A DNA stretch of 20,153 nt from a virus: IMG/VR virus record IMGVR_UViG_3300042261_000353, positions 1-20,153 of that record; one strand, given 5' to 3'. Positions 2,531 to 19,911 of the stretch are shown piece after piece; within the stretch, counting starts at the first letter, position 1; each line of letters opens with the position of its first letter. The position numbers and the translations under genes are program-made. The notes beneath the pieces were generated by a model, which was given only the letters and a program-made list of their open reading frames with translations, made no database searches and had not been told where the DNA came from.

Positions 2531-3128
2531 AGAAATACATATTCCTAGAAAATATTTTATTGAGAGGGGTGGGTTTACTCAGCCAGATCTTACAACCTTT
2601 TTAAAACGTAATGATATTACCTGCAACTCAGACGGTTTTTACCCTGTTATGAGGATAGTTGAGGCGCTAAACAGTGAAAGAAAAAAGAAAAGGTTTGATA
2701 GCGATGGCGATGATGACCTAGAAATAGAATTAAAGAGAGAGAAGATTCAGAAGGAACGAATAATAAATCAGCAGAGACTGGGTAGATTAATCGAGAGAGA
2801 CAGAGCTAAAGAAAGAGTTCGAATAGCTTTCTCTGCAGTAGCTAATAAGATAAGGTATTCGATTAAACTAGTAACGCCTAAACTTGTTCAATATGTTTGG
2901 GCTGTAAAGAATAGTGAAATACAAGAACCAAGCGCCCGAGAAATCGAGGCGCTATTGTCCAATGAGTATAATGGTGCAATAGAGTTGCTATACAGTGAGG
3001 TAAACAATGTCACCTGGGAACAAGACGGAAGTGAAGTTAAGCTCAGAAGAACTGAGTTGGCTGAAGATTCCGGAGAAAGTGTCACCTCTACAGGTAGTAC
3101 CGAAGATACGAGTACCGCTGAAGAGTAA
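2520..3128 (+). CDS. terS: Terminase small subunit (Nu1-like)
   Basis: The start is taken at ATG 2520 (MSTEEIHIPRKYF). An in-frame ATG at 2457 lies deep inside the LamG-type gene, lacks a ribosome binding site and would add an unlikely hydrophobic leader. The 202-residue product has a helix-turn-helix-like N-terminus (about residues 18-51, GGFTQPDLTTFLKRND onward). A long charged coiled-coil region follows (about 66-105, with ELKREKIQKERI), as in gpNu1-type small terminases where it drives oligomerisation. The C-terminus is acidic and Ser/Thr-rich. It would recognise the packaging start site and load the large subunit encoded next. Its last 122 bases are also read in another frame as the N-terminus of the large terminase. 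Confidence 0.75.
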   Translation: MSTEEIHIPRKYFIERGGFTQPDLTTFLKRNDITCNSDGFYPVMRIVEALNSERKKKRFDSDGDDDLEIELKREKIQKERIINQQRLGRLIERDRAKERVRIAFSAVANKIRYSIKLVTPKLVQYVWAVKNSEIQEPSAREIEALLSNEYNGAIELLYSEVNNVTWEQDGSEVKLRRTELAEDSGESVTSTGSTEDTSTAEE

Positions 3129-4908
3129 CGTACTTGACAAAATAGATCTGACATTGACTCCTTACCTAAACGCTCCTATCTCTTTGATAGGAGACAGTAG
3201 GGTTAAGTGGCTTATAGCCATTGCTCCTACTCAGAGCGGAAAAACAGTTCTGTTGCAGGTATCTGTTGCGGATACAATAGATCAAGATCCCGGTCCTGGT
3301 TTATACCTTCTGCCAGATCAAATCTCTAGTAAGAAAAACTTACAGGAGAAAATAATAAACATGATCACTTCGTCACCTGCGTTAGCTGCGCATATGACTG
3401 GCAGAGTAAGGGATATATCTAAGACTGAAATAGAATTAGATAACATGACAATATACCCTGGGTGGGCTGGTTCTCTTGGGACCACATCCTCCCTCCCGAT
3501 GAAGCGAGTCTGGATTGATGAAGCACGACTTATGGGTCTTACCGTGGGCAATGAGTCAAACGCAATTCAAACCGGAGAGGATCGGCTCACTACTTATTTT
3601 AAAGCTGGCATAGGCCAAGGTATTATTGTTTCATCTCCTTCTGTCGTAGGAGATTTATTACATAGTCAGTTGGACGCAAAAGGTACCTCTATATGGGCCT
3701 GGGCAGTTCCGTGCCCAGCATGTCGTAAGTACCAGAGACTTGATTTCTTTAAGAATGTAAAAATTAAAGATGATGTAAAGTGTGTATGTAAGTTTTGTGG
3801 TGCTGGGTTTACTGACTTAGATGACAAAAGAGAGTGGAATAATAAAGGCATGTATATGCGTCTGCTCTTAAATGATAATAATGAATTGGTGGAGACTGAG
3901 ATTGATGAGGACGGTAACGCAGAGTATCCTTTTGAAGTTACACCTCGTATGGCCTTTATGTGGGATTCTCTTGTTTCTCCGTTTAGAACTTTTTATGCTA
4001 TAGGGCATAAATACTTAGAGACAAAGGATAAGCTGTATGACTATAAGCACTTTATTCAGTGCTGGTTAGCTCGTTTTTGGATTGACGATATTAGTAAAAC
4101 AACAGTGACGAATTTAAAATCTCACTGTAAAGGGTATTCTAAGAAGGATGTTCCAGCTAAAGTAAAGGTCTTATTTACTGGTATAGATACACAAGACAAT
4201 GGGTTTTATTGTGTGACACGGGGACATGGAGCTAATAAATTCACTGCTTTAGTGGATGAATTCTTCTGCCCTTGTCCTATAGATATAGCCGATGAACGAG
4301 ATATTATAAAAATAATAACTCGTGACATAATGGATAGAGTCTATGTGGGTGAGAAAGGCGAGTCTTGGAAGATAGCTATGGCTGCTATAGATACAGGTGG
4401 CCACAGGACTAAGACTATTTATCGTGTGGCTACGAATTTTCCTAAGCTGATAATGGTCAAGGGAAGAGATAATCAAAGTACAACTTATTCCTACAATAAG
4501 GAGTTGAATTTATACCTTGTTAGAACCAGTGAGTACTTGGAAGAGACAGAAAAGAAATGTGAGTCTCCTTCTTGGTGGTTGCCAGAGAATATAAGTACTG
4601 ATTATCTTACTCAGTTTGTAGCTGTTAGAAAGATAAGAGAAAAGAATAAGAAGACTGGTACCGAGACGATCATTTGGAAGAAAATTGGTAAGACAGATTA
4701 TCGTATGGCTGACATACATACTTTCATACCTTTAGACATTCCAAGTGATGACTATGGTGTTTTACGTTCTCGTATAGAAGAAGATGTCTTTGTTTTAAAC
4801 CCAGCTATGCAAGAAAAAAAGCAAGCTGAAATCCGGTCTGAGTCTTCTACAATGAACGTAGAAGAACAAGAAGACGACTTTGTAAACATTTCAGGAGGTT
4901 GGCTATAA
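3007..4908 (+). CDS. terL: Terminase large subunit, lambda GpA family
   Basis: The 633-residue protein is the ATP-driven DNA packaging motor and nuclease. The ATPase domain has a Walker A motif APTQSGKT at residues 73-80 and a Walker B-like segment KRVWIDEA at 166-173. A Cys4-type ribbon follows (CPAC at 236-239, CKFC at 261-264), in the GpA-typical position after VP. The nuclease part carries acidic residues in GIDTQD (D394), AAIDTGGH (D462) and YRMADIH (D569). Length and motif order match lambda GpA-type enzymes. The start at ATG 3007 has GAGG at 2997-3000. The next in-frame Met lies beyond Walker A, so the 122-base overlap with the small terminase gene is probably genuine. It ends as TAATG with the next gene. 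Confidence 0.95.
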   Translation: MSPGNKTEVKLSSEELSWLKIPEKVSPLQVVPKIRVPLKSNVLDKIDLTLTPYLNAPISLIGDSRVKWLIAIAPTQSGKTVLLQVSVADTIDQDPGPGLYLLPDQISSKKNLQEKIINMITSSPALAAHMTGRVRDISKTEIELDNMTIYPGWAGSLGTTSSLPMKRVWIDEARLMGLTVGNESNAIQTGEDRLTTYFKAGIGQGIIVSSPSVVGDLLHSQLDAKGTSIWAWAVPCPACRKYQRLDFFKNVKIKDDVKCVCKFCGAGFTDLDDKREWNNKGMYMRLLLNDNNELVETEIDEDGNAEYPFEVTPRMAFMWDSLVSPFRTFYAIGHKYLETKDKLYDYKHFIQCWLARFWIDDISKTTVTNLKSHCKGYSKKDVPAKVKVLFTGIDTQDNGFYCVTRGHGANKFTALVDEFFCPCPIDIADERDIIKIITRDIMDRVYVGEKGESWKIAMAAIDTGGHRTKTIYRVATNFPKLIMVKGRDNQSTTYSYNKELNLYLVRTSEYLEETEKKCESPSWWLPENISTDYLTQFVAVRKIREKNKKTGTETIIWKKIGKTDYRMADIHTFIPLDIPSDDYGVLRSRIEEDVFVLNPAMQEKKQAEIRSESSTMNVEEQEDDFVNISGGWL

Positions 4909-8899: not shown

Positions 8900-9904
8900 A
8901 TGGCAGCAGCACAGAGAGGTACAAGCGTAACTCTTAGACAGGATCTTATCGATCTTGTTGAAGAGATTCAATTTGAGGATCTTAACTTAACAGCAGAACG
9001 TATTGCTCCGTCTATTTCGGTATCCGAGAGAGCAGCAGAATACCCAGTTCTGCCACGTGAAGCTAAGATGAAACTGTACAATGCCAGAAGAAAGTCTGAT
9101 GGTGGGTATACTAGAATCCAGTATGACTGGGGATCAGATACCTACATCTGCTACGAATATGGTGTTGAAGCAGTTGTTGACAACGTGAGCAAGTTGGAAA
9201 ATGCTCGTTTTATTGATGAAGAAGAGCAAGCAGCTAATCGAGTCTATGAAGGTCTTCATTTGGCCCGTGAGTCTCGTGTAGCTGAAGCTTTGTTAGATAC
9301 TTCAGTCTTTACCGGAGCCACTAACACTTCAGCAATAACAAACGAGTGGGATGATGCAGCTAATGCAACGCCTAAAGCTGATATAGATGCAGCTTTATCT
9401 ATTTTGCGCGGTAAGTGTGCTTATGGAAAGAAAATGTTCTCAGTCATTCTTTCTGATGACTTGGTAGACTATTTCTTTGCCACTACCGAAATCAAAAACA
9501 TTACCCAGTATACGAGTTATGCTGGCTTAATGACTGCACCACGTGACGTAAGGGTCCGATGGATGGCTGAATACTTCGGTGTAAAAGAAGTGATCGAGAC
9601 CAGTGCAATGTTTGATACTTCCAAGCTTAGTAATGCTGCAAGTATTGGAAAATTCTGGTCAAACGAATACATCTTTGTTGGAAAGTTGTGTCCTCCCGGC
9701 TCAAAAATAACAACTGAAGGTGTGGTCAAGCAGTTGAAATGGTCTTTGTATTCTGACGACTACATTATCGAGGATTACGAAGAACCTTCTTATAACCGAA
9801 TGGTTTATAGGGCACGTGAGTATAGAGGTATTAAAGTCAACACTGACTACGGAGTGCTTCTGACTAACGCGAAGACAACTGTAAGTTCGTCCACTAATAT
9901 CTAA
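8900..9904 (+). CDS. Major capsid protein, lambda gpE-like (HK97 fold)
   Basis: The 334-residue product starts at ATG 8900 with AAGGAG at 8886-8891. It fits the length and position of lambda E-type major capsid proteins: after protease/scaffold and cement, before the tail genes. The N-terminal LRQDLIDLVEEIQF region is helical. A long middle helix follows (RFIDEEEQAANRVYEGLHLARESRVAEAL), then DDAANATPKADIDAALSILR, a pattern common in gpE-type proteins just before the P-domain, and FSVILSDDLVDYF. There is no large cleavable N-terminal scaffold, consistent with the separate Nu3-like scaffold. It should be the most abundant virion protein, and a strong terminator follows at once. Confidence 0.88.
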   Translation: MAAAQRGTSVTLRQDLIDLVEEIQFEDLNLTAERIAPSISVSERAAEYPVLPREAKMKLYNARRKSDGGYTRIQYDWGSDTYICYEYGVEAVVDNVSKLENARFIDEEEQAANRVYEGLHLARESRVAEALLDTSVFTGATNTSAITNEWDDAANATPKADIDAALSILRGKCAYGKKMFSVILSDDLVDYFFATTEIKNITQYTSYAGLMTAPRDVRVRWMAEYFGVKEVIETSAMFDTSKLSNAASIGKFWSNEYIFVGKLCPPGSKITTEGVVKQLKWSLYSDDYIIEDYEEPSYNRMVYRAREYRGIKVNTDYGVLLTNAKTTVSSSTNI

Positions 9905-11033: not shown

Positions 11034-11984
11034 ATGTCTGCTAAGGTATTAAAGAGACTGACAGCTCAATTACAGGCTGGAAGTACTTACGAGTCAAATG
11101 CGCCCATTGAAATTCCCTTTAAAACGGAAACGTTATCGCAGAAATATGACCCCATTAACGATGAGGCATATTTAGGCCAAGCTTTTGCGTCTTTGCCGCA
11201 ACAAGGTAACCGGCACACAAAGGGATCTATATCTCAGAACTTGGATATAGTATCCTGTTTCCCTATCTTTGAAGCTGCTTTTGGGGCTAATTCTTCTGGA
11301 GTTTTTACCTTGGGGAGCAACAGCAAGAAGCTATCCATGTGTGGGCTGAACAGTGTTAATGCTTCTCAGTATGCTAATGTATACGTAACAAAGATAAAAA
11401 TCTCTGGCTCTGCAGGTAACTTAATGTCTGTAGAGTATGATGTTATGTCTGTCACAGCCCAATCACGTCAAGCAACAAGTGCTTTTCCAGCTTCTCCAAC
11501 TGCTCCAGGAATTCCTTTTACTTTCTCTGAAGCAGGAGGAACAGGGTATGTTAGAGTGGGGGACCAGGCCGATGCTTTAAGTGCCTCAGATGAGATTAAT
11601 ATTGAAGAGTTCTCTATCGATATTACTACTGGTTTTGATGAACAGTTTTGTAACGAAGGCACTGGAACGTTGACACCTACTTTTGGTATGGTAACTCCTA
11701 CCATTGAAGGTTCTTTTAAGCTGTCTAGGCACACTAACGATAACTTCCAAGCTTGGAGTGACAATGAGACAGCTCTTCAGATGGCAATAAGTCTGTACAA
11801 GAGTTCGACAGCTAATATTCTACTTGAGATTCCTAACTTTTTATGTACGGTAGAGCTTAGTGACGAAGAGCTAACTAAACCCACTGTCACCATGATGATA
11901 GGTAGAAATGGCGTAGGAACAAGTTACTCTAACTCAAACATGAGTTTTGTTTCTCCCTTGCGAATCACTGTAGACAACTCATAA
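11034..11984 (+). CDS. Tail tube protein, first copy (V-like)
   Basis: A 316-residue protein with AAAAGGAGG at 11021-11029. Features of the phage tail tube family are seen: an N-terminal strand region with KTETLSQKYD, then SISQNLDIVSCFPIFEAAFG, paired strands VYVTKIKISGSAGNLMSVEYDV, and a second half INIEEFSIDITTGFDEQF, then GSFKLSRHTNDNFQAW. It would stack as rings to form the tail lumen. The next gene has the same order of landmarks (AAFG/WAFG, GVFTLG/GVFVLTA, KLSRH/VLSRY, a following W), so the two are probably paralogues. Where the second copy has an inserted domain, this one has only a short GANSSGVFTLGSNS link at about residues 84-97. Confidence 0.75.
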   Translation: MSAKVLKRLTAQLQAGSTYESNAPIEIPFKTETLSQKYDPINDEAYLGQAFASLPQQGNRHTKGSISQNLDIVSCFPIFEAAFGANSSGVFTLGSNSKKLSMCGLNSVNASQYANVYVTKIKISGSAGNLMSVEYDVMSVTAQSRQATSAFPASPTAPGIPFTFSEAGGTGYVRVGDQADALSASDEINIEEFSIDITTGFDEQFCNEGTGTLTPTFGMVTPTIEGSFKLSRHTNDNFQAWSDNETALQMAISLYKSSTANILLEIPNFLCTVELSDEELTKPTVTMMIGRNGVGTSYSNSNMSFVSPLRITVDNS

Positions 11985-11995
11985 GGAGATAAATA

Positions 11996-13333
11996 ATGGC
12001 TGAGTCAGTAAAGGTTTTACAGACAGGCGCTTTCCAAATGGAAGCTGGTCAGGCTGGAGCGGGACAATCTCCTGGGTGGGGTCAGTCTGGCTCAGAAGAA
12101 ACTTTAGGCACTAACAATGCCTTTCCATATTTAGAACTTGGTAAAGGTAAGACTATTAATTATGAAAAGGACAACAGTGTAACAACTAATGCCTTCGAAG
12201 ACCTCCCAAGAAAAGTAACTGATTATGTTGAGAAGTCTCTTTCTATGAACGCAAGAGTGGCCGACATTGATCAGTTTATGTATTGGGCTTTTGGTTTTGA
12301 GTTGCCTGTAGTAACTGTGGGTGTTTTTGTCCTTACTGCTCCGAGTGTAGAACCTGTTGCAGGAGCTACATACAGAGATACAGATTTAAACGATTTTACT
12401 TTCATGAGAAAAGAAGTAAATAGAACTACCACATACTACATATTTCGATGTGACGATTCTCATGTACCTACCCTTGCTACAGGTAATTTGACAAAGCAAG
12501 CCGGTACAGGGGGCGCAACACTGGCTTTTACAGCACACAGTGTTTTGATGTATGAGCATACTTTTGAACTTGATTCAAGAGAAAGGCATTTTACATCTTT
12601 TTGCTACCCTGAACAGATAGCTGGGTATTCAGCAGGAGACAAAAAGAATCGTATGGCCACCATAGGAATTAAGATGGGCACTAACGATTATCGTTACAAA
12701 AACTCCATGTGCAAAAAGTTCAATTTTAAAAGCTCTGCAGCTCAGTTCGCTCAGATGGCTTTTGACTTTGTCGCACATTCAGAGGACAGAGGAGATTATA
12801 GTAGTTCCTCCTGGACATATCCCGCGGGTCTAACAGCCTCTGCCAACATCATAACTCATGCTCAGTTAAGAGTAGAGTTAGGCACAGCAGAAGGGTCTTT
12901 AACGGCAGTGGGAGCCACTGATGTAGAAGTTGGGTTTGATGCTCCGTTAAAACTAGAGCAGGATACAAACAGTGGAGTATATCTTGCTGAGCCTCAGATG
13001 GAAGGCAAGTATGGGCTTACTTGTAACATTGTTTTATCTCGTTATGCTGCTGAAACTTGGCAGGGTTATCGAGACAATTGGACAACTGTTATAGGCCGAA
13101 TATCGGCTGAGTACGGTTATTACAGAACAGAGTTTCTGGTAAATTCTGCTACTCTGCCTGAAGCAGGCCCAGATGATAGTGAGATAGCTAAGGAAAACTT
13201 AAGTCTAGTTGTTGGCTATAGTGCAACAAACAACTGGTCTTCCTGGCTATATGGAAATACTTTAGTTCACAAAAGTCCACTGATTATGCGGGTACGCAAC
13301 CTGTCCAGCACTAATCAGATGTTTGCAATTTAA
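11996..13333 (+). CDS. Tail-tube-family protein, second copy with inserted domain
   Basis: The 445-residue protein has AAGGAG at 11983-11988. It shares the tube-protein landmarks of its upstream neighbour: SLSMNARVADIDQFMYWAFG near residues 81-100, ELDSRERHFTSF, KKFNFKSSAAQFAQMAFDFV, then NIVLSRYAAETWQGYRDNW. About residues 111-182 are an extra domain with APSVEPVAGATYR, then LATGNLTKQAGTGGATLAF. A similar module lies in the hub-like protein encoded from 17083. It could be a second tube subunit, a tail-tip or tube-initiator ring, or an outward-facing decorated tube. Paralogy is my reading by eye. Confidence 0.68.
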   Translation: MAESVKVLQTGAFQMEAGQAGAGQSPGWGQSGSEETLGTNNAFPYLELGKGKTINYEKDNSVTTNAFEDLPRKVTDYVEKSLSMNARVADIDQFMYWAFGFELPVVTVGVFVLTAPSVEPVAGATYRDTDLNDFTFMRKEVNRTTTYYIFRCDDSHVPTLATGNLTKQAGTGGATLAFTAHSVLMYEHTFELDSRERHFTSFCYPEQIAGYSAGDKKNRMATIGIKMGTNDYRYKNSMCKKFNFKSSAAQFAQMAFDFVAHSEDRGDYSSSSWTYPAGLTASANIITHAQLRVELGTAEGSLTAVGATDVEVGFDAPLKLEQDTNSGVYLAEPQMEGKYGLTCNIVLSRYAAETWQGYRDNWTTVIGRISAEYGYYRTEFLVNSATLPEAGPDDSEIAKENLSLVVGYSATNNWSSWLYGNTLVHKSPLIMRVRNLSSTNQMFAI

Positions 13334-13352: not shown

Positions 13353-13700
13353 ATGCCTTTTGTAGTTAATCCAATACGTAAGAAAACCTTTAAACGTGAA
13401 ATCGACGGAGAGTCTTTTGAAGTTGATTTTGAGTTTGAGTGCCATGAGGATTCTGATTTCGAAGCCGTGATGAATAGAGAAGGGACTCAAATAAATACCT
13501 TCTATCTACGGCTAAGGAGATCTTTAAAAGCTGTTAGAGGTATAGTTGGTCCTGATGGTGAGCTGGACATGAAGAAGGAAGATGAGCAAAAAGCTGTCTT
13601 CGAATTCTTGACAACTTGTCCAGGGTTGTTGATTGAGATACAGGATGCTTATTTGGGATTAAACCCAAAAAACTCAAAATCTGGTGTGATGCAACAATAG
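13353..13700 (+). CDS. Tail assembly chaperone, G-like
   Basis: The start is ATG 13353 (MPFVVNPIRKKTF) with GGGAGGG at 13343-13349; an in-frame ATG at 13323 overlaps the end of the previous gene and has no ribosome binding site. The product is 115 residues, charged, with an N-terminal strand part (EIDGESFEVDFEFE) and a helical remainder. It lies directly before the tape measure gene, the invariant place of the G/GT chaperones, which coat the tape measure protein and recruit tube subunits. Near its 3' end are tandem slippery heptamers, so it is probably also the N-terminal part of a longer frameshift product. Confidence 0.8.
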   Translation: MPFVVNPIRKKTFKREIDGESFEVDFEFECHEDSDFEAVMNREGTQINTFYLRLRRSLKAVRGIVGPDGELDMKKEDEQKAVFEFLTTCPGLLIEIQDAYLGLNPKNSKSGVMQQ

Positions 13701-14008
13701 ATTGGAACTGGCAACCGTCTACGTGTAGCACATGCCAGAGTAACTGTTCTGGGTGTCCGTTCGTGCCAGATCAAACAATAGACCTTAAGAGGTTGACTAA
13801 GATATTTGGGAAGTTCTGGTCTATGTACATGACAATAGTGACAGTAAGCCCGTTAGACTCTAACGGGTTTTTAACTGCTTCTGCTGCTGGGGACGTCTTG
13901 ATGACTTCCCCAGAAGTGTTTGAGTGGACACACTCAGAGTTCTGGAGAGCTCTTGGGTATACTTTAGATAGGCACAACACAAGATTAAAAATAAAGAGAG
14001 GTAAATAA
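13353..14008 (+). CDS. Tail assembly chaperone, GT-like, made by -1 frameshift
   Basis: A -1 shift at 13664-13673 would join the G-like chain to the frame ending at TAA 14006-14008, giving about 218 residues. The -1 frame is open from 13637 to 14008, while the zero frame stops at 13700. After the shift the chain reads through a Cys-rich stretch CSTCQSNCSGCP (CxxCxxxCxxC, about 13724-13759), then DLKRLTKIFGKFWSMYM and a Trp-containing C-terminus (FEWTHSEFWRALGY). Read alone, the frame has only a GTG at 13763 without a ribosome binding site, so independent translation is unlikely. In lambda GT binds the tube subunit through its T part; the Cys4 cluster may bind a metal here. The fusion is inferred from sequence. 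Confidence 0.75.
13664..13739 (+). promoter_or_regulatory. Programmed -1 frameshift signal: tandem slippery heptamers and downstream stem
   Basis: In the zero frame the sequence reads C CCA AAA at 13664-13670 and A AAA AAC at 13667-13673; both fit X XXY YYZ. After a six-base spacer, TCTGG-TGTG (13680-13688) can pair with CACA-TG-CCAGA (13729-13739, TG bulged), a 9-bp stem that could stimulate slipping. The -1 frame is closed upstream by TGA 13634-13636, so the shift must happen between 13637 and 13700. Confidence 0.75.
13849..13872 (+). terminator. Terminator-like hairpin inside the GT extension
   Basis: CCCGTTAG (13849-13856) pairs with CTAACGGG (13860-13867) around a three-base loop and is followed by TTTTT (13868-13872), the full form of an intrinsic terminator. 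It lies within the frame read only after the -1 shift (peptide SPLDSNGFL) and 137 bases before the tape measure start. It may attenuate transcription into the tape measure gene or be masked by ribosomes. Confidence 0.6.
13887..13936 (+). other. Two further hairpins in the GT extension
   Basis: CTGGGGA-C-GTC (13887-13897) can pair with GAC-T-TCCCCAG (13903-13913) around TTGAT, with one internal mismatch. TGAGTG (13921-13926) pairs with CACTCA (13931-13936) around GACA. With the terminator-like hairpin at 13849, this makes three hairpins in 88 bases, just before the tape measure start. Confidence 0.5.
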
Positions 14009-14009
14009 C

Positions 14010-16652
14010 ATGGCAGGGTCATTAATCTTACAGATAGGCATAGATGATAAAGGCAATCCAGCTATAATGAAGCTCGGTACCAATGCAAAAAAAGCCAAGG
14101 GAGACGTGGCACCCTTAGGCGATGTCTTACAGAAGGTTTTTGCCTCTGCCGTTATGCTAAAAGGACTAGAAGTAATCAACACCCAGCTAATGGCCGCTGT
14201 TAAAGGTGCGCAGGAGTTTGAGTTAGCCATAAAGAAAGTATCTGCGATAGGTGGAGCTACTGGAGACGCCCTGTCTGCTGTTAGAGATACGGCTAAGCAG
14301 CTATCTGTGGAGACAGAACATAGCGCTGTTGCGTTGTCTAATTCTATGCTTGAATTAACTAAGATGGGTTATGAGTCTGACGATGTAAATAAAATGATAA
14401 AGCACACAGCCAACTTAGCTACGGCAGCGCAGGAAGATTTAGCTTGGTCTACTGTAAACACAGCTAACTTAATGAAGGCTTTTGGCCTAGGAGCTGCAGA
14501 TACTGAAAAAACTGTAAATACTGTAGCTAATGCTTTAAACCTTACCTCTTTGAATCTTGAAGAGTATATGGATGCAATGAAGTACGTTTCTCCTATTGCG
14601 AAGACACTTAACGTATCCTTTGAGGAAACGACTGCTTTACTTGGTCTACTCTCTGACAGGGGTATAAAAGGCTCTTTAGCTGGTACAAGCATAAAGAACA
14701 TGATGTTAAAGCTAATCGCCCCTACTGGGAATGTAGCTAAGGCGTTGCAGGACGTAAATTTTGAAGGTATGAACCTAACTGAAGTTATGGGAGTATTGCA
14801 TGATAAGGGCGTCAATACTAGTTCTATGTTAAAGCAGTTCGATTTACGTGCCTTAACAGGTGCTTTGGCCGTAGGAGAGAATGCAAAAGAGGTAGCTAAA
14901 TTAACGGCTATATTGGAAGGACAAGGTAAGACTGCTAAAGAAGTCGCTGACATTATACGTGAGTCATTTATCATGCAGCTAGCCGAATTAAAGAATACCG
15001 TTATGTTAGTGGGTATAGAATTAAACGAGGCTCTTGGGAGTAATGGAGTTTCTCTTCTCCAGAACCTAAAAGGTCATTTAATGGAGGCAGTAACTTGGAT
15101 AAAGGCAAATAAAGAAGAGTTGTCTGAAGCGGCAGAGAAGATATCCCAGATAGCTAACGCACTAATGAATGTTTTGCTCAACTCCCTTAAGGTCAATAAA
15201 ACAGAAATACTGGCTCTAGGTAGTGCTTTGGCCGCTATAACAGCCGTTAAGACGTATACCAGTATAGTTAAAGTGGGTAAGGCTTTCACTGATTGGAAGT
15301 TAAAGACGTTGACAACAGACGTTAAGGGTTTAGAGATGGCAATGCTTGCTGCTGTAGGTGTTGGGTTGACCTTACGCAGTATAATAATAGAGATGGCAAA
15401 CAAAAAATTAGTTCAAGCAGATGCTAATGCTTTTGGTGCGGCCAATTATAGGACACAAGAACACCTCGATGCTCTAATGAAAATGGCTCCTCTGTATGAA
15501 GATATAAGAAAGAAAGAACAGGCTCTTGTAGATGTAGGAGTTAAAGCAGAAGATGCACACAAAGGTCTATTCGACGAGTATAAAAAACTTAACGATGCTT
15601 TAACCTCATACGAGCAGAAATGGGGTCGTGCCGGAAGAGACATGGTTGATACTTATAAGGAGTGGGCTGACACTGTAAAGACTTTAAATAAGTTGTTGCC
15701 AAAAGAGCTGACTAAGCCCGAAGGACCAAGTGCAAAACCTAAAGAAGGTCCAGGTTTTGGCAACAAAATAGACATGAATGAATTCTTGTATGATCAAAAA
15801 TTATTGGAAATAGAAAGACAAAAAGAGTCAATAGATAGGACGAAAGCCGCTTTAAAGGCAAACAAATCTGAGATATCTAAATACGAAGGTATCGCTATAA
15901 AAGGAAGAAAAGGCGAAAAGGAAGCAGAAAAAGCTCTCAAAGAAATAGCTACATTTAATGCTAAGTCGAGAGAAATGGAACTAAAGTCCATTTCTGAGAT
16001 CGGGGATGCTGGTGTAGATATCTATGCAAATATTCAAGAACGCATGTTCTCTAAATATGAGGAGAGAATAAATAAAGAATTAGAGTTACTACAAGCTTCA
16101 AGTGATGCTGAGTTAACCTTGGCGGGTGACAATGCTTTTAGAAAGCAGATGATCCTAGACAAGACAGCCAGCAAAGAATTAGCTATAAAAAAGAAACTCG
16201 AGGCAGAGCGAAAGGCTTTTGAGAAAAGACAGGCTATAATAGATATAGCTAGAGCAACTGCCGATGCTGTTAGAGGTGTTGTCTCTGTTATGGCAGACAC
16301 TAGAGGAGGGCTTGTCAGCAGACTTGCATCCGGTTTAGCTTATGGGGCTATCGCTGCTTCGTATGTTGCGCAACTTAGTGCAGTGAATTTCCGTTACGGT
16401 TCCAAAGAACCGATTAGAGGGAACGGTACATCTGATACTATACCCACTCTAATGAGTCCTGGTGAGCGAGCTCTTTCTGTAAATGAAATTGATCGTTTAG
16501 GAGGCAATCAGAACCTACAAAAAATGATTGACAGGGGAGACAGCTATACCACTAATTCAAGCGTGAACGTATATATTAAACAAGTAGTAGGGCAAAAACA
16601 ATATGTGAGGGATACTATCATTCCTATTATTAAAAAGGAGATGGCTAGATGA
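14010..16652 (+). CDS. Tail tape measure protein, TP901 type
   Basis: The 880-residue protein starts two bases after the GT stop with GAGAGG at 13996-14001. The N-terminal 250 residues hold the TP901-type core: FELAIKKVSAIGGATGDAL, SNSMLELTKMGYESDDV, TANLMKAFGLGAADTEK, MKYVSPIAKTLNVSFEET and DRGIKGSLAGTSIKNMMLK. Hydrophobic stretches occur at about residues 400-460 and near the C-terminus (ASGLAYGAIAASYVAQL), as in tape measure proteins that later enter the cell envelope. A Lys/Glu-rich coiled coil fills about 590-760. The end is a common tape measure tail: DTIPTLMSPGERALSVNE. By the usual rule of about 0.15 nm per residue, the tail would be near 130 nm. The stop overlaps the next start as ATGA. 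Confidence 0.93.
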   Translation: MAGSLILQIGIDDKGNPAIMKLGTNAKKAKGDVAPLGDVLQKVFASAVMLKGLEVINTQLMAAVKGAQEFELAIKKVSAIGGATGDALSAVRDTAKQLSVETEHSAVALSNSMLELTKMGYESDDVNKMIKHTANLATAAQEDLAWSTVNTANLMKAFGLGAADTEKTVNTVANALNLTSLNLEEYMDAMKYVSPIAKTLNVSFEETTALLGLLSDRGIKGSLAGTSIKNMMLKLIAPTGNVAKALQDVNFEGMNLTEVMGVLHDKGVNTSSMLKQFDLRALTGALAVGENAKEVAKLTAILEGQGKTAKEVADIIRESFIMQLAELKNTVMLVGIELNEALGSNGVSLLQNLKGHLMEAVTWIKANKEELSEAAEKISQIANALMNVLLNSLKVNKTEILALGSALAAITAVKTYTSIVKVGKAFTDWKLKTLTTDVKGLEMAMLAAVGVGLTLRSIIIEMANKKLVQADANAFGAANYRTQEHLDALMKMAPLYEDIRKKEQALVDVGVKAEDAHKGLFDEYKKLNDALTSYEQKWGRAGRDMVDTYKEWADTVKTLNKLLPKELTKPEGPSAKPKEGPGFGNKIDMNEFLYDQKLLEIERQKESIDRTKAALKANKSEISKYEGIAIKGRKGEKEAEKALKEIATFNAKSREMELKSISEIGDAGVDIYANIQERMFSKYEERINKELELLQASSDAELTLAGDNAFRKQMILDKTASKELAIKKKLEAERKAFEKRQAIIDIARATADAVRGVVSVMADTRGGLVSRLASGLAYGAIAASYVAQLSAVNFRYGSKEPIRGNGTSDTIPTLMSPGERALSVNEIDRLGGNQNLQKMIDRGDSYTTNSSVNVYIKQVVGQKQYVRDTIIPIIKKEMAR

Positions 16653-17086
16653 TAACAATTACTTTGACTCAAGGTACCAACGCAGTATCGGTATCCGGCT
16701 CCTTGGTCTACGGTAGTGATTTCGTTCCTGTCCGGCTAAATCAAATAGAGCAGAAGGCTGCAGACGGTACAGATATTATAATAGATTTAGGTCCCACTGA
16801 AATAAGAGGTGCCCTTATTATTAAGGGTGCTTCTTTAACGGATGGTGAGGCTCTTAGAACTTGGTTAGAGACTAAAACTGTCTTTGCCAAAGAGACCTTT
16901 ACTATTTCTGCGGTCATTGGAGTTAATTTGGGGAATGGTCCAGGTGTCGCTATATCGACAGCAGCTGAACCACTCCCTACTACAAGTAATGCGAGGTATA
17001 ACGGAGGCCCTACGTTAGAAGGTGTTTTTGAAAAAGTAGCTCCAGGTGTTTTTAACATTAAACTCCCATACAGGTTTTTAAGATGA
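16649..17086 (+). CDS. Small distal tail protein
   Basis: A 145-residue protein starting at the ATGA overlap with the tape measure gene, with AAAAAGGAG at 16632-16640. It is mostly beta: MITITLTQGTNAVSVSGSL, DIIIDLGPTEIRGALIIKG, a TWLETKTVFAKETFTISAV strand pair and VAPGVFNIKLPYRF at the end. The place right after the tape measure, where distal tail and tip proteins are encoded, suggests a tip ring subunit linking tube and hub (lambda M/L position). No family is recognised firmly. It ends in another ATGA overlap with the hub-like gene, so the three genes from the tape measure on are a coupled set. Confidence 0.65.
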   Translation: MITITLTQGTNAVSVSGSLVYGSDFVPVRLNQIEQKAADGTDIIIDLGPTEIRGALIIKGASLTDGEALRTWLETKTVFAKETFTISAVIGVNLGNGPGVAISTAAEPLPTTSNARYNGGPTLEGVFEKVAPGVFNIKLPYRFLR

Positions 17087-19911
17087 ACTATTCATATGTA
17101 GCAATATACCCTAATAGCTCAGATGACTGGACTACTACTAGCCCAGTCTCTGGTTACAATTTGTCGGGAGGCAAGACAGCTCTCGTGTTCGGTACTTTAC
17201 CTTCAGATTCTTTCACTAATTTTAAGCGTATCCCTGGAAAGCTCCTTAGTATGTCACCCAAGCACCAGTCAGTAGAGATCCTAACCAAACCTGCAAAGGG
17301 TGTAGGCGGTGTAGCCAAATCTTCTGACATGGAGATTACTTTGGCTATTACGGGGATAACAGCATCTGGGTTGATAGGCAGAGCTGCGAAGGTATTTATA
17401 GGGAGCGGTTCTGCGTTGTCTGAGTCTGCTAACTGCATACTCAGTGGTTCTGTTTTTGATATAGATAAGAGTAAGAATTCTCTGTCTTTTAACATTAGAG
17501 GTAATTCACAGCTATGGGATGCTGAGATAGGGCAGTTATCAGGATCAACTAATGATTTATATAAGAGTAAAATAACTCCTATTACCTACGGAGATTTTTC
17601 CGATTCGGCAGGTTTTATGCCCATGGTTTTGACAGATGAGTTTTCTAACTCTCCTCAGTTAAAAACTTCAGCCAGGGAGTTGTCTGAGATAACTGACGTT
17701 GTTTGTTGGGATGAAGAAGGTAAGGTAGCCTACCAAGCCTTTCACGGAAGCAATATAGTTATATCTGCAGACAACACTATCTTAACTTTAGCTGCTTCGT
17801 CAGACGTAAAAGTAGTCGAAGCCACCGGAACAGTATCATCGATAAAGATATGGAATCCTCGTAAGGTAATTATGTCGTTAGTTGGTGAACCTTCCTTGGA
17901 TACGACATCTGTATACCACATAACAGGAGACTCTGACCCTTTTCACAAATTCCGATTTATAGAGGTTAGCGGAGGGTTCTATATATTCGCTGTTGTCCGA
18001 GACTGGACAACTTTAGGGGGGGTAAGTTCGGGAGAGCTAACTAAAGATTCAGGAACCGGAGACGCTACAATAGATTTTACTTGGATTAGCAACCCACAAC
18101 CAGATTCTTTTTATCTAGAGGGTGCTTTTGAAGAATACTCAGACGTTACAGATTCTCTTATAGGAATAATACCTAAACCTTGTGTCATAAAGATAGATAG
18201 TGAGCAGATATTAGTGCATTATATGGTAGACAGGACAGACTCAGATGTAGGTTACGAATACACTGAATGTTTATGTGTAAGAGGTTATAATGGATCTACA
18301 TCTGCAAACCATGCTATAGACGCACCTGTTTTTTATTCTGATCAGGTGACAGGGTCTAAGTGGTTAGTTAAACATACGTTCTTTCCTTCGGACCTGTCTG
18401 GTATAACTTTCTTAACTTTTTCAAAGCCAGGGGTAGAACTGTGGTATTCTGACTATGCGAGATATACCGATTTTAGTACCTTAGGGAACTTGGTGGCTGC
18501 CTATAAAAATAAGTTAATTTTGCCTCAGAAATATTCTGGCGCGTTAGATGACTATGAGGCCACAATAACGTTAGATGCCGCAGGGGCCGCAGATGACTCC
18601 TTGATTGGCGATGCTCTTCTTCTTATTGGACTTGTATTCCCCAAAATATCTGTGCAAGGCGATATAGCAGCCATGTACATGCAAGGGTCTTACAATGTTA
18701 TTGCCACGAATGTAGGAGATTATCAGCTAGGTATAGGCATAAGTGTCGGGCCAAGACCCATACCTCAGTTTGTTGATAGCTCAGACGACGCCGATGTCTT
18801 GGGCACCTGTGGCTCTTATAGAAAAAAACCTTGGAATAGCGAAGAGGTGACATTGATTGAAGAAGGTGGTTTAGCAAATAGAAGCGTGGTCTTTGGCCTA
18901 CAGGACAAAATTATAAGTCTTGATGCTGCTAGGGGGTGGGACGATGAAGATACCTTCACACTAGATCACTCTGACTTGAAAAGAAATGGGTTGCTTAGCA
19001 AATTGGATGAGTTGAATACTCAGAGGATAACTTTAGCTTGTCTAGGTAGCTGGCAATATTCCAAACCGATCGGAAAGGTGGTTTGGAATATAGCAGCACC
19101 AGGAATATTGATTTATTTCTACGTGGACCCTACTAAGAACGTATTTTGGGCGAGAGGTAAAGGTGTTGTTGATGGAACAAGTACCTTAATAGAGAACCCT
19201 GTTTATGTAATAAAAGATTTATTGTCTGAGGAAGGAGTAGTTCCTGTGGGATCTATAGAGACTCCTGCTTCTTCTATATCGGAGAGGGCTGGGTGGAAAG
19301 TAGCTTTGTCTTTACATGAAGATCCTGTTCAGGCTCAAGAAGTTTTAGAGCAGATATCTAGAGAGCATGGATTAATTATAATGGAAACCAATTCCGGGGA
19401 ACTTAGCATAAAAACATTGGATATACCTTCGAGAGCTTCGGTAGATCATCTTATAAACAACTACAATATTTTAGGAGATGGTTCAGAAATATCTTGGGTG
19501 GAGAGCTATACTTCAACAGATTATTTGATTACGGAAATTGAAGCTAAATACAAGAAGAGACTGACTGATAAGGTCTACACTGCTACTGAAGCAGACACAT
19601 ACACTGTGGAGTCTCTGGACCTAGATAGAAAAGCTGTCCTATCTTTAGAAACAATAAGAGACCGGACGACGGTACAGAATCTTCTTGGTTTAATGGAGTC
19701 TTATTATACGCAACCTATGAGGGTGGGTGAGTTAGTTGTAGACTTAAGCAAATGGGAGATAGAAGTTGGCGACTGGGTAGGCCTTACTTCGGATACTTAC
19801 ATACCTAACGTATCGACTAAAGTGTTCTTGGTGCTGGAGACTGAATTAACTCCACCGTGTTTAGATAATGAGCCTGGTCTCAAATTAACTTTATTGGAGG
19901 TTCCAACATGA
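17083..19911 (+). CDS. Large tail tip/hub-like protein
   Basis: A 942-residue beta-rich protein at the baseplate-hub position. Several parts are visible. Residues about 1-260 are strand-rich, with SAREL and ITDVVCWDEEG. About 267-335 is a module with LVGEPSLDTTSVYHIT, then SSGELTKDSGTGDATIDF, like that in the second tube protein. About 363-420 carries KIDSEQILVHY and LCVRGYNGSTSANHAIDAPV, close to the widespread phage pattern of R-G-x-x-G-T/S then H-x-x-x-A-x-V. About 740-942 resembles the hub/J-type domain, with PVQAQEVLEQISREHGLIIM, GELSIKTLDI and VDLSKWEIEVGDWVGL. It probably forms the tail tip that contacts the host. Calls are by pattern; the overall role rests on position, size and these modules. 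Confidence 0.7.
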   Translation: MNYSYVAIYPNSSDDWTTTSPVSGYNLSGGKTALVFGTLPSDSFTNFKRIPGKLLSMSPKHQSVEILTKPAKGVGGVAKSSDMEITLAITGITASGLIGRAAKVFIGSGSALSESANCILSGSVFDIDKSKNSLSFNIRGNSQLWDAEIGQLSGSTNDLYKSKITPITYGDFSDSAGFMPMVLTDEFSNSPQLKTSARELSEITDVVCWDEEGKVAYQAFHGSNIVISADNTILTLAASSDVKVVEATGTVSSIKIWNPRKVIMSLVGEPSLDTTSVYHITGDSDPFHKFRFIEVSGGFYIFAVVRDWTTLGGVSSGELTKDSGTGDATIDFTWISNPQPDSFYLEGAFEEYSDVTDSLIGIIPKPCVIKIDSEQILVHYMVDRTDSDVGYEYTECLCVRGYNGSTSANHAIDAPVFYSDQVTGSKWLVKHTFFPSDLSGITFLTFSKPGVELWYSDYARYTDFSTLGNLVAAYKNKLILPQKYSGALDDYEATITLDAAGAADDSLIGDALLLIGLVFPKISVQGDIAAMYMQGSYNVIATNVGDYQLGIGISVGPRPIPQFVDSSDDADVLGTCGSYRKKPWNSEEVTLIEEGGLANRSVVFGLQDKIISLDAARGWDDEDTFTLDHSDLKRNGLLSKLDELNTQRITLACLGSWQYSKPIGKVVWNIAAPGILIYFYVDPTKNVFWARGKGVVDGTSTLIENPVYVIKDLLSEEGVVPVGSIETPASSISERAGWKVALSLHEDPVQAQEVLEQISREHGLIIMETNSGELSIKTLDIPSRASVDHLINNYNILGDGSEISWVESYTSTDYLITEIEAKYKKRLTDKVYTATEADTYTVESLDLDRKAVLSLETIRDRTTVQNLLGLMESYYTQPMRVGELVVDLSKWEIEVGDWVGLTSDTYIPNVSTKVFLVLETELTPPCLDNEPGLKLTLLEVPT

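Follow-up and report, generated by a model that had tools for sequence, protein, structure and literature searches.

The window analysed here is the whole of the 20,153-base IMG/VR virus record IMGVR_UViG_3300042261_000353, and it carries siphophage-like head and tail genes. A gpA-type terminase is encoded at 3007-4908 and a major head protein at 8900-9904. The tail genes follow in the order tail tube (11034-11984, two genes 5' of G), a 445-aa tail protein (11996-13333, directly upstream of G), G, T, and tape measure (14010-16652), the last four on the plus strand. G, a probable tail assembly chaperone of 115 aa, has a GGGAGG upstream, begins with ATG at 13353 and ends with TAG at 13698-13700, and its frame is taken here as the zero frame. 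T is an extension read in the -1 frame (13637-14008). The tape measure protein (880 aa) was recognized by Pfam (PhageMin_Tail, 2.2e-32) and by many PHROG tape measure families, and it is presumed to be the client of the chaperones. Its start codon stands two bases past the T stop in the window; in two relatives (L034, 8102-8121; L037, 5437-5444) it falls within the last part of T. One stretch of some 35 residues, YYIF...G.LTK..GTG.AT..F, is common to the 445-aa tail protein (residues 147-179; 12434-12532) and to a 942-aa protein encoded at 17083-19911 (residues 299-333; 17977-18081); similar matches are present in relatives, and the stretch is a small repeated module in two tail genes. Regarding clues to the host, the scanned pieces held no tRNA and no integrase.

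Close to the 3' end of G the zero frame reads ...AAC CCA AAA AAC TCA AAA..., so that, as described in the earlier note, the heptamer C CCA AAA (13664-13670) overlaps A AAA AAC (13667-13673), both on the plus strand and both in the zero frame. The -1 frame is closed by TGA at 13634-13636 and is open thereafter to the TAA at 14006-14008, which leaves 113 T residues from the slip site; entry into the fusion would be at 13667-13673. The G stop lies 10 codons past the start of the slip codons. The overlap of the two frames holds four in-frame strings of the form X XXY YYZ (TTTGGGA at 13652, AAACCCA at 13661, CCCAAAA at 13664 and AAAAAAC at 13667). AAAAAAC is not rare in the window (10 found versus 7.05 expected) and the wide 97-nt fold is unremarkable (z -0.72), so the window by itself is not decisive. 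The decisive evidence comes from the relatives: all 14 distinct phages place A AAA AAC at one and the same codon, and the stem covaries.

IMG/VR was scanned for relatives with three queries (head protein, 445-aa tail protein and T). These scans gave 13 further distinct phages and one 99.9% identical twin of the window, for a total of 14 distinct phages. Twelve of the 13 relatives were reached via the head or tail protein, a route that is blind to the slip site. The remaining one (L052) is not independent with regard to the slip site because it was found by a T pattern beginning with KKL. The 14 phages are related, so the conservation counts below are not counts of independent events; the 445-aa tail protein is 31 to 71% identical in the relatives, and their G proteins are 23 to 49% identical to that of the window. 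A DNA pattern scan for WCD[AG]xx[IV]DxxW, which is also blind to the slip site, returned family members that were known before, each of which has the slip site, and otherwise only chance hits to unrelated genes. None of the annotated phage genomes was close enough to help; tblastn searches of INPHARED with G, with T and with the 445-aa tail protein gave nothing, and scans of genome contigs gave no useful match. The largest relative (L047; see also L094, 8722-10017) lies on the 208,085-base contig IMGVR_UViG_3300032123_000052, which also encodes an MCM-like P-loop protein and a protein with a Fib_succ_major domain. This is a hint, and only that, of a large phage or of a host out of the ordinary. 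The 80 kb of this contig that were sampled held no tRNA.

In the relatives, G, T and a long following gene come in the same order, and this long gene is tape measure-like in every relative that is long enough to show it. G, the T frame in -1 and the exact heptamer A AAA AAC are present in all 14 distinct phages, with the codon and frame of the heptamer unchanged; a relative with both frames that had lost both heptamers was not found. The third base of the codon preceding AAA AAC is A in every phage, even though the encoded amino acid varies (P, S, G, T, A, or E); the product of the codon frequencies would be about 6e-6 if the phages were independent, which they are not. The asparagine codon of the slip site is always AAC, even where AAC makes up only 7 to 15% of the asparagine codons. 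The final C is not kept merely to encode leucine in the -1 frame, since one phage (L046) has KKR instead of KKL there. The distance from the opening of the -1 frame to the slip site does not exceed 30 nt in 12 of the 14 phages and 48 nt in any of them. Counted from the start of the slip codons, the G stop of the relatives comes after 2, 3, 10 or 34 codons; it falls within 10 codons in 13 of the 14 phages, and the G frame of L035 continues for 34. A TAA stands directly after the heptamer in four relatives (L034 at 7720, L036 at 7799, L042 at 7791 and L052 at 5001). This pattern strongly supports the proposal of the earlier note that we are dealing with a -1 frameshift of the lambda G/G-T type directly before the tape measure gene.

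The same comparison bears on the suggestion that the two overlapping heptamers are both used and give the window phage a distinct frameshift rate. Both strings are in frame, and some slippage on C CCA AAA is plausible, as its sister C_CCA_AAG is shifty in E. coli (PMC5009743). However, C CCA AAA is confined to the window phage and its twin and is absent from the 13 other distinct phages. The three bases before AAAAAAC vary freely (CCC, CTC, AGG, CAC, TGC, TGA, CGA, AGA, GGA, TAC), L030 having CTC in place of CCC, so that CCC precedes the conserved heptamer in only 1 of 14. Strings of this form also arise easily in the overlap, as TTTGGGA and AAACCCA are in frame as well, and the products of the two sites would be only one residue apart (NPKKLK for C CCA AAA and NPKNLK for A AAA AAC). 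Because C CCA AAA is limited to the window phage and its twin and the preceding triplet is unconstrained, we read it as probably incidental, which removes the basis for a distinct rate; use of both sites in tandem seems very improbable to us. A AAA AAC is taken as the working site.

A putative frameshift-stimulating hairpin lies at 13680-13739 on the plus strand. As noted earlier, its 9-bp stem (arms 13680-13688 and 13731-13739, loop 42 nt) starts 6 nt past the AAC; the nine pairs are contiguous and include two G-U wobbles, and a one-base bulge sits just inside the ninth pair. Taken as a tight stem-loop of 71 nt, the structure is unusual (z -2.82), with 3 of 200 shuffles being equally stable. 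The same hairpin is present in 13 of the 14 phages with a spacer of 5 to 6 nt and with repeated compensatory changes, and the single-sequence folds of 13 of the 14 gave z values of -1.5 to -4.4. When alignment columns 12-22 are set against columns 65-75, 90.3% of the cells are paired compared to 31 to 42% for slid versions. The covariation score of the stem was 0.359 compared to 0.190 in shuffled alignments, a value reached by none of 500 and also above that of the slid controls, and two-sided changes were seen in 14 cells compared to 4.5 in the shuffles, with again none of 500 reaching 14. The shuffles do not keep the relatedness of the phages, and for that reason the slid controls and the tree also matter. 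On the tree of the 445-aa protein, pair 14-73 underwent at least five changes of state among A-U, U-A, G-C and one A-C, and in pair 15-72 the change from C-G to U-A arose twice. RNAalifold recovered the same stem unaided. The exception is the most divergent relative (L042, 7791-7868), where the stem is broken and the fold is no better than shuffles although the slip site is kept. In this phage T reads WCTATSD instead of WCDATxD. As its TAA directly follows A AAA AAC, it may rely on the adjacent stop codon in place of the hairpin. A pseudoknot is not supported: pairing of the loop with sequence 3' of the stem was inconsistent across phages, and the best matches in single sequences were mostly at chance level; an Rfam search gave no useful match.

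The arms of the stem also code for protein. In the -1 frame they encode the Trp-Cys (x-W-C-D) and Cys-Gln (C-Q-x) motifs of T. Residues 5 and 25 of this protein covary across the phages (D with F, L or S; N with F; C with H; L with S; V with T), and these combinations track base pairing and differ from what protein chemistry would lead one to expect.

T itself is conserved in every one of the 14 phages; its invariant residues are W6, C7, D12, C20, C23, W51, G67, F92, L100 and N104. Every member has two more cysteines after C23, which makes five conserved cysteines in all, and the four-cysteine pattern suggests that T may bind metal. Sequence searches of Pfam, PHROG and PDB gave no sound match for T. 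The AlphaFold2 model is mainly helical (mean pLDDT of 84). It had no significant fold match, and Foldseek against the PDB gave nothing; among viral proteins there were weak fold matches, some of them to annotated tape measure proteins or tail chaperones (CcrColossus, F20, Loki), which we consider only a lead.

The earlier note had called T startless. This stands insofar as no start codon is conserved, or placed, for the whole domain; it goes slightly too far, as GTG, TTG and ATG codons occur in the T frame of the window from T residue 33 on. T might be a separate gene translated from a start of its own, for example, the GTG at 13763, which has a counterpart in an equally placed GTG of L030. 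The start codons are not conserved across relatives, however, and no ribosome binding site is evident for the frame at 13763. Two relatives (L038 and L041) have no T start codon before residue 100 of 123 and 129, respectively, so in these phages the whole of T can be reached only by shifting. The starts in the window come only after the most conserved part of the protein, which extends from KK(L/R)xxWCD to the cysteines, and a separate gene would leave the invariant heptamer and the stem unexplained. We therefore rejected an independent start and give this explanation almost no credence. We think it just as hard to believe that the frames are joined by RNA polymerase slippage on the run of 6 to 7 A residues or by a sequencing error, as six bases are a short run for polymerase slippage, 14 separate contigs share the change of frame, the final C and an RNA hairpin at a fixed spacing, and errors would not hit the same codon in every phage.

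We consider it very likely that a programmed -1 frameshift at A AAA AAC, with C CCA AAA being incidental, lets the locus produce both G (115 aa) and G-T (about 218 aa) as tail assembly chaperones. Comparison of the phages shows selection on the frame and the slip site as well as on the hairpin and T, and we infer the act of shifting, the shift rate and the chaperone role. Searches of Pfam, PHROG and PDB gave no match of sound score for G either; one member of the G family weakly matched phrog_313, 'Tail assembly chaperone' (E of 0.013), and Foldseek with the G model gave annotated tail assembly chaperones at E values of 0.03 to 0.5 with weak query TM-scores of 0.29 to 0.42. With no sound family match for either G or T, the argument for a chaperone role is drawn from position, architecture and weak fold matches. 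Ribosomes translating G would arrive at A AAA AAC and be held by the hairpin 6 nt ahead, and a minority would slip back by one base to AAA AAA. The slipped ribosomes would bypass the stop codon of G and continue in the T frame as far as 14008, and the remainder would stop at 13700. The predicted junction peptide for a shift at A AAA AAC is ...GLNPKNLKIWCDATIDWN..., with NPKN-LKIW at the junction. By analogy with lambda, the tape measure protein made from 14010 would be covered by many copies of G and few of G-T, and recruiting the subunits of the tail tube would fall to the T part; in lambda, G-T links the tape measure and the tube protein (PMC5009743).

The likeness to lambda is that a small gene stands before the tape measure gene with a -1 shift near its 3' end and that the extension ends right before the tape measure gene (PMC5009743). 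Unlike in lambda, the slip site in the window is A AAA AAC, the hairpin is supported by covariation, T has five conserved cysteines, and neither G nor T has detectable sequence homology to described families. The same heptamer is reported for Acinetobacter phage Loki (gp12/gp13; PMC5313236) and for Caulobacter phage phiCbK (gp93/gp94; PMC3556154). In both, G ends with ...KN, T begins with KKL and TAA comes right after the heptamer (L061 at 10020 for Loki and L062 at 9278 for phiCbK), as in the four relatives with an adjacent stop, whereas in the window the G stop lies further on. The T domains of Loki and phiCbK do not have the cysteine motif, and homology of our T to either was rejected (hhalign probability of <1%). 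As the A AAA AAC TAA junction is found in four relatives and in two phages with an unrelated T, a stop right after the slip site may be a recurrent design. A_AAA_AAC is also the reported g-t shift site of HCTV-2 (PMC5009743), a virus of haloarchaea rather than of bacteria, and the same heptamer has been given tentatively for Paenibacillus phage Dragolir (PMC6003738).

A AAA AAG is a far more efficient shift site in E. coli than A AAA AAC (PMC5009743), and the re-pairing from AAC to AAA is described as something that bacterial ribosomes tolerate less well than eukaryotic ones do (PMC4066793). The shift rate is possibly low because A AAA AAC is weak in E. coli, a species that may not represent the host. 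Either a low rate suffices for these phages or their hosts differ. A further proposal, which is speculative and in our view on the unlikely side, has two parts: that T is a metal-binding chaperone domain, of the zinc or iron-sulphur kind, whose cysteine motif lies in the same bases as the hairpin, with the RNA pairing dictating residues beside the metal site, and that a junction with A AAA AAC at or near the G stop recurs as a design among phages with hosts prone to shifting when they decode AAC.

The device is already well known in phages; what is new is the lineage, which is absent from the annotated phage collection that we searched. Beyond this there are modest novelties, namely, a cysteine-rich T family, a covarying hairpin coded inside T and an invariant slip site of the AAC type. 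The locus provides a clean tail-chaperone frameshift supported by comparison, with a hairpin backed by compensatory changes, in a lineage without a close annotated match. The whole of the conserved T domain, which has no entry in the family libraries searched, is reached only via the shift, and ordinary gene calling would cut T or miss it. Lastly, given how poorly the invariant A AAA AAC performs in E. coli, it becomes testable whether the hosts of these phages decode it differently or the phages need only a low rate of shifting.
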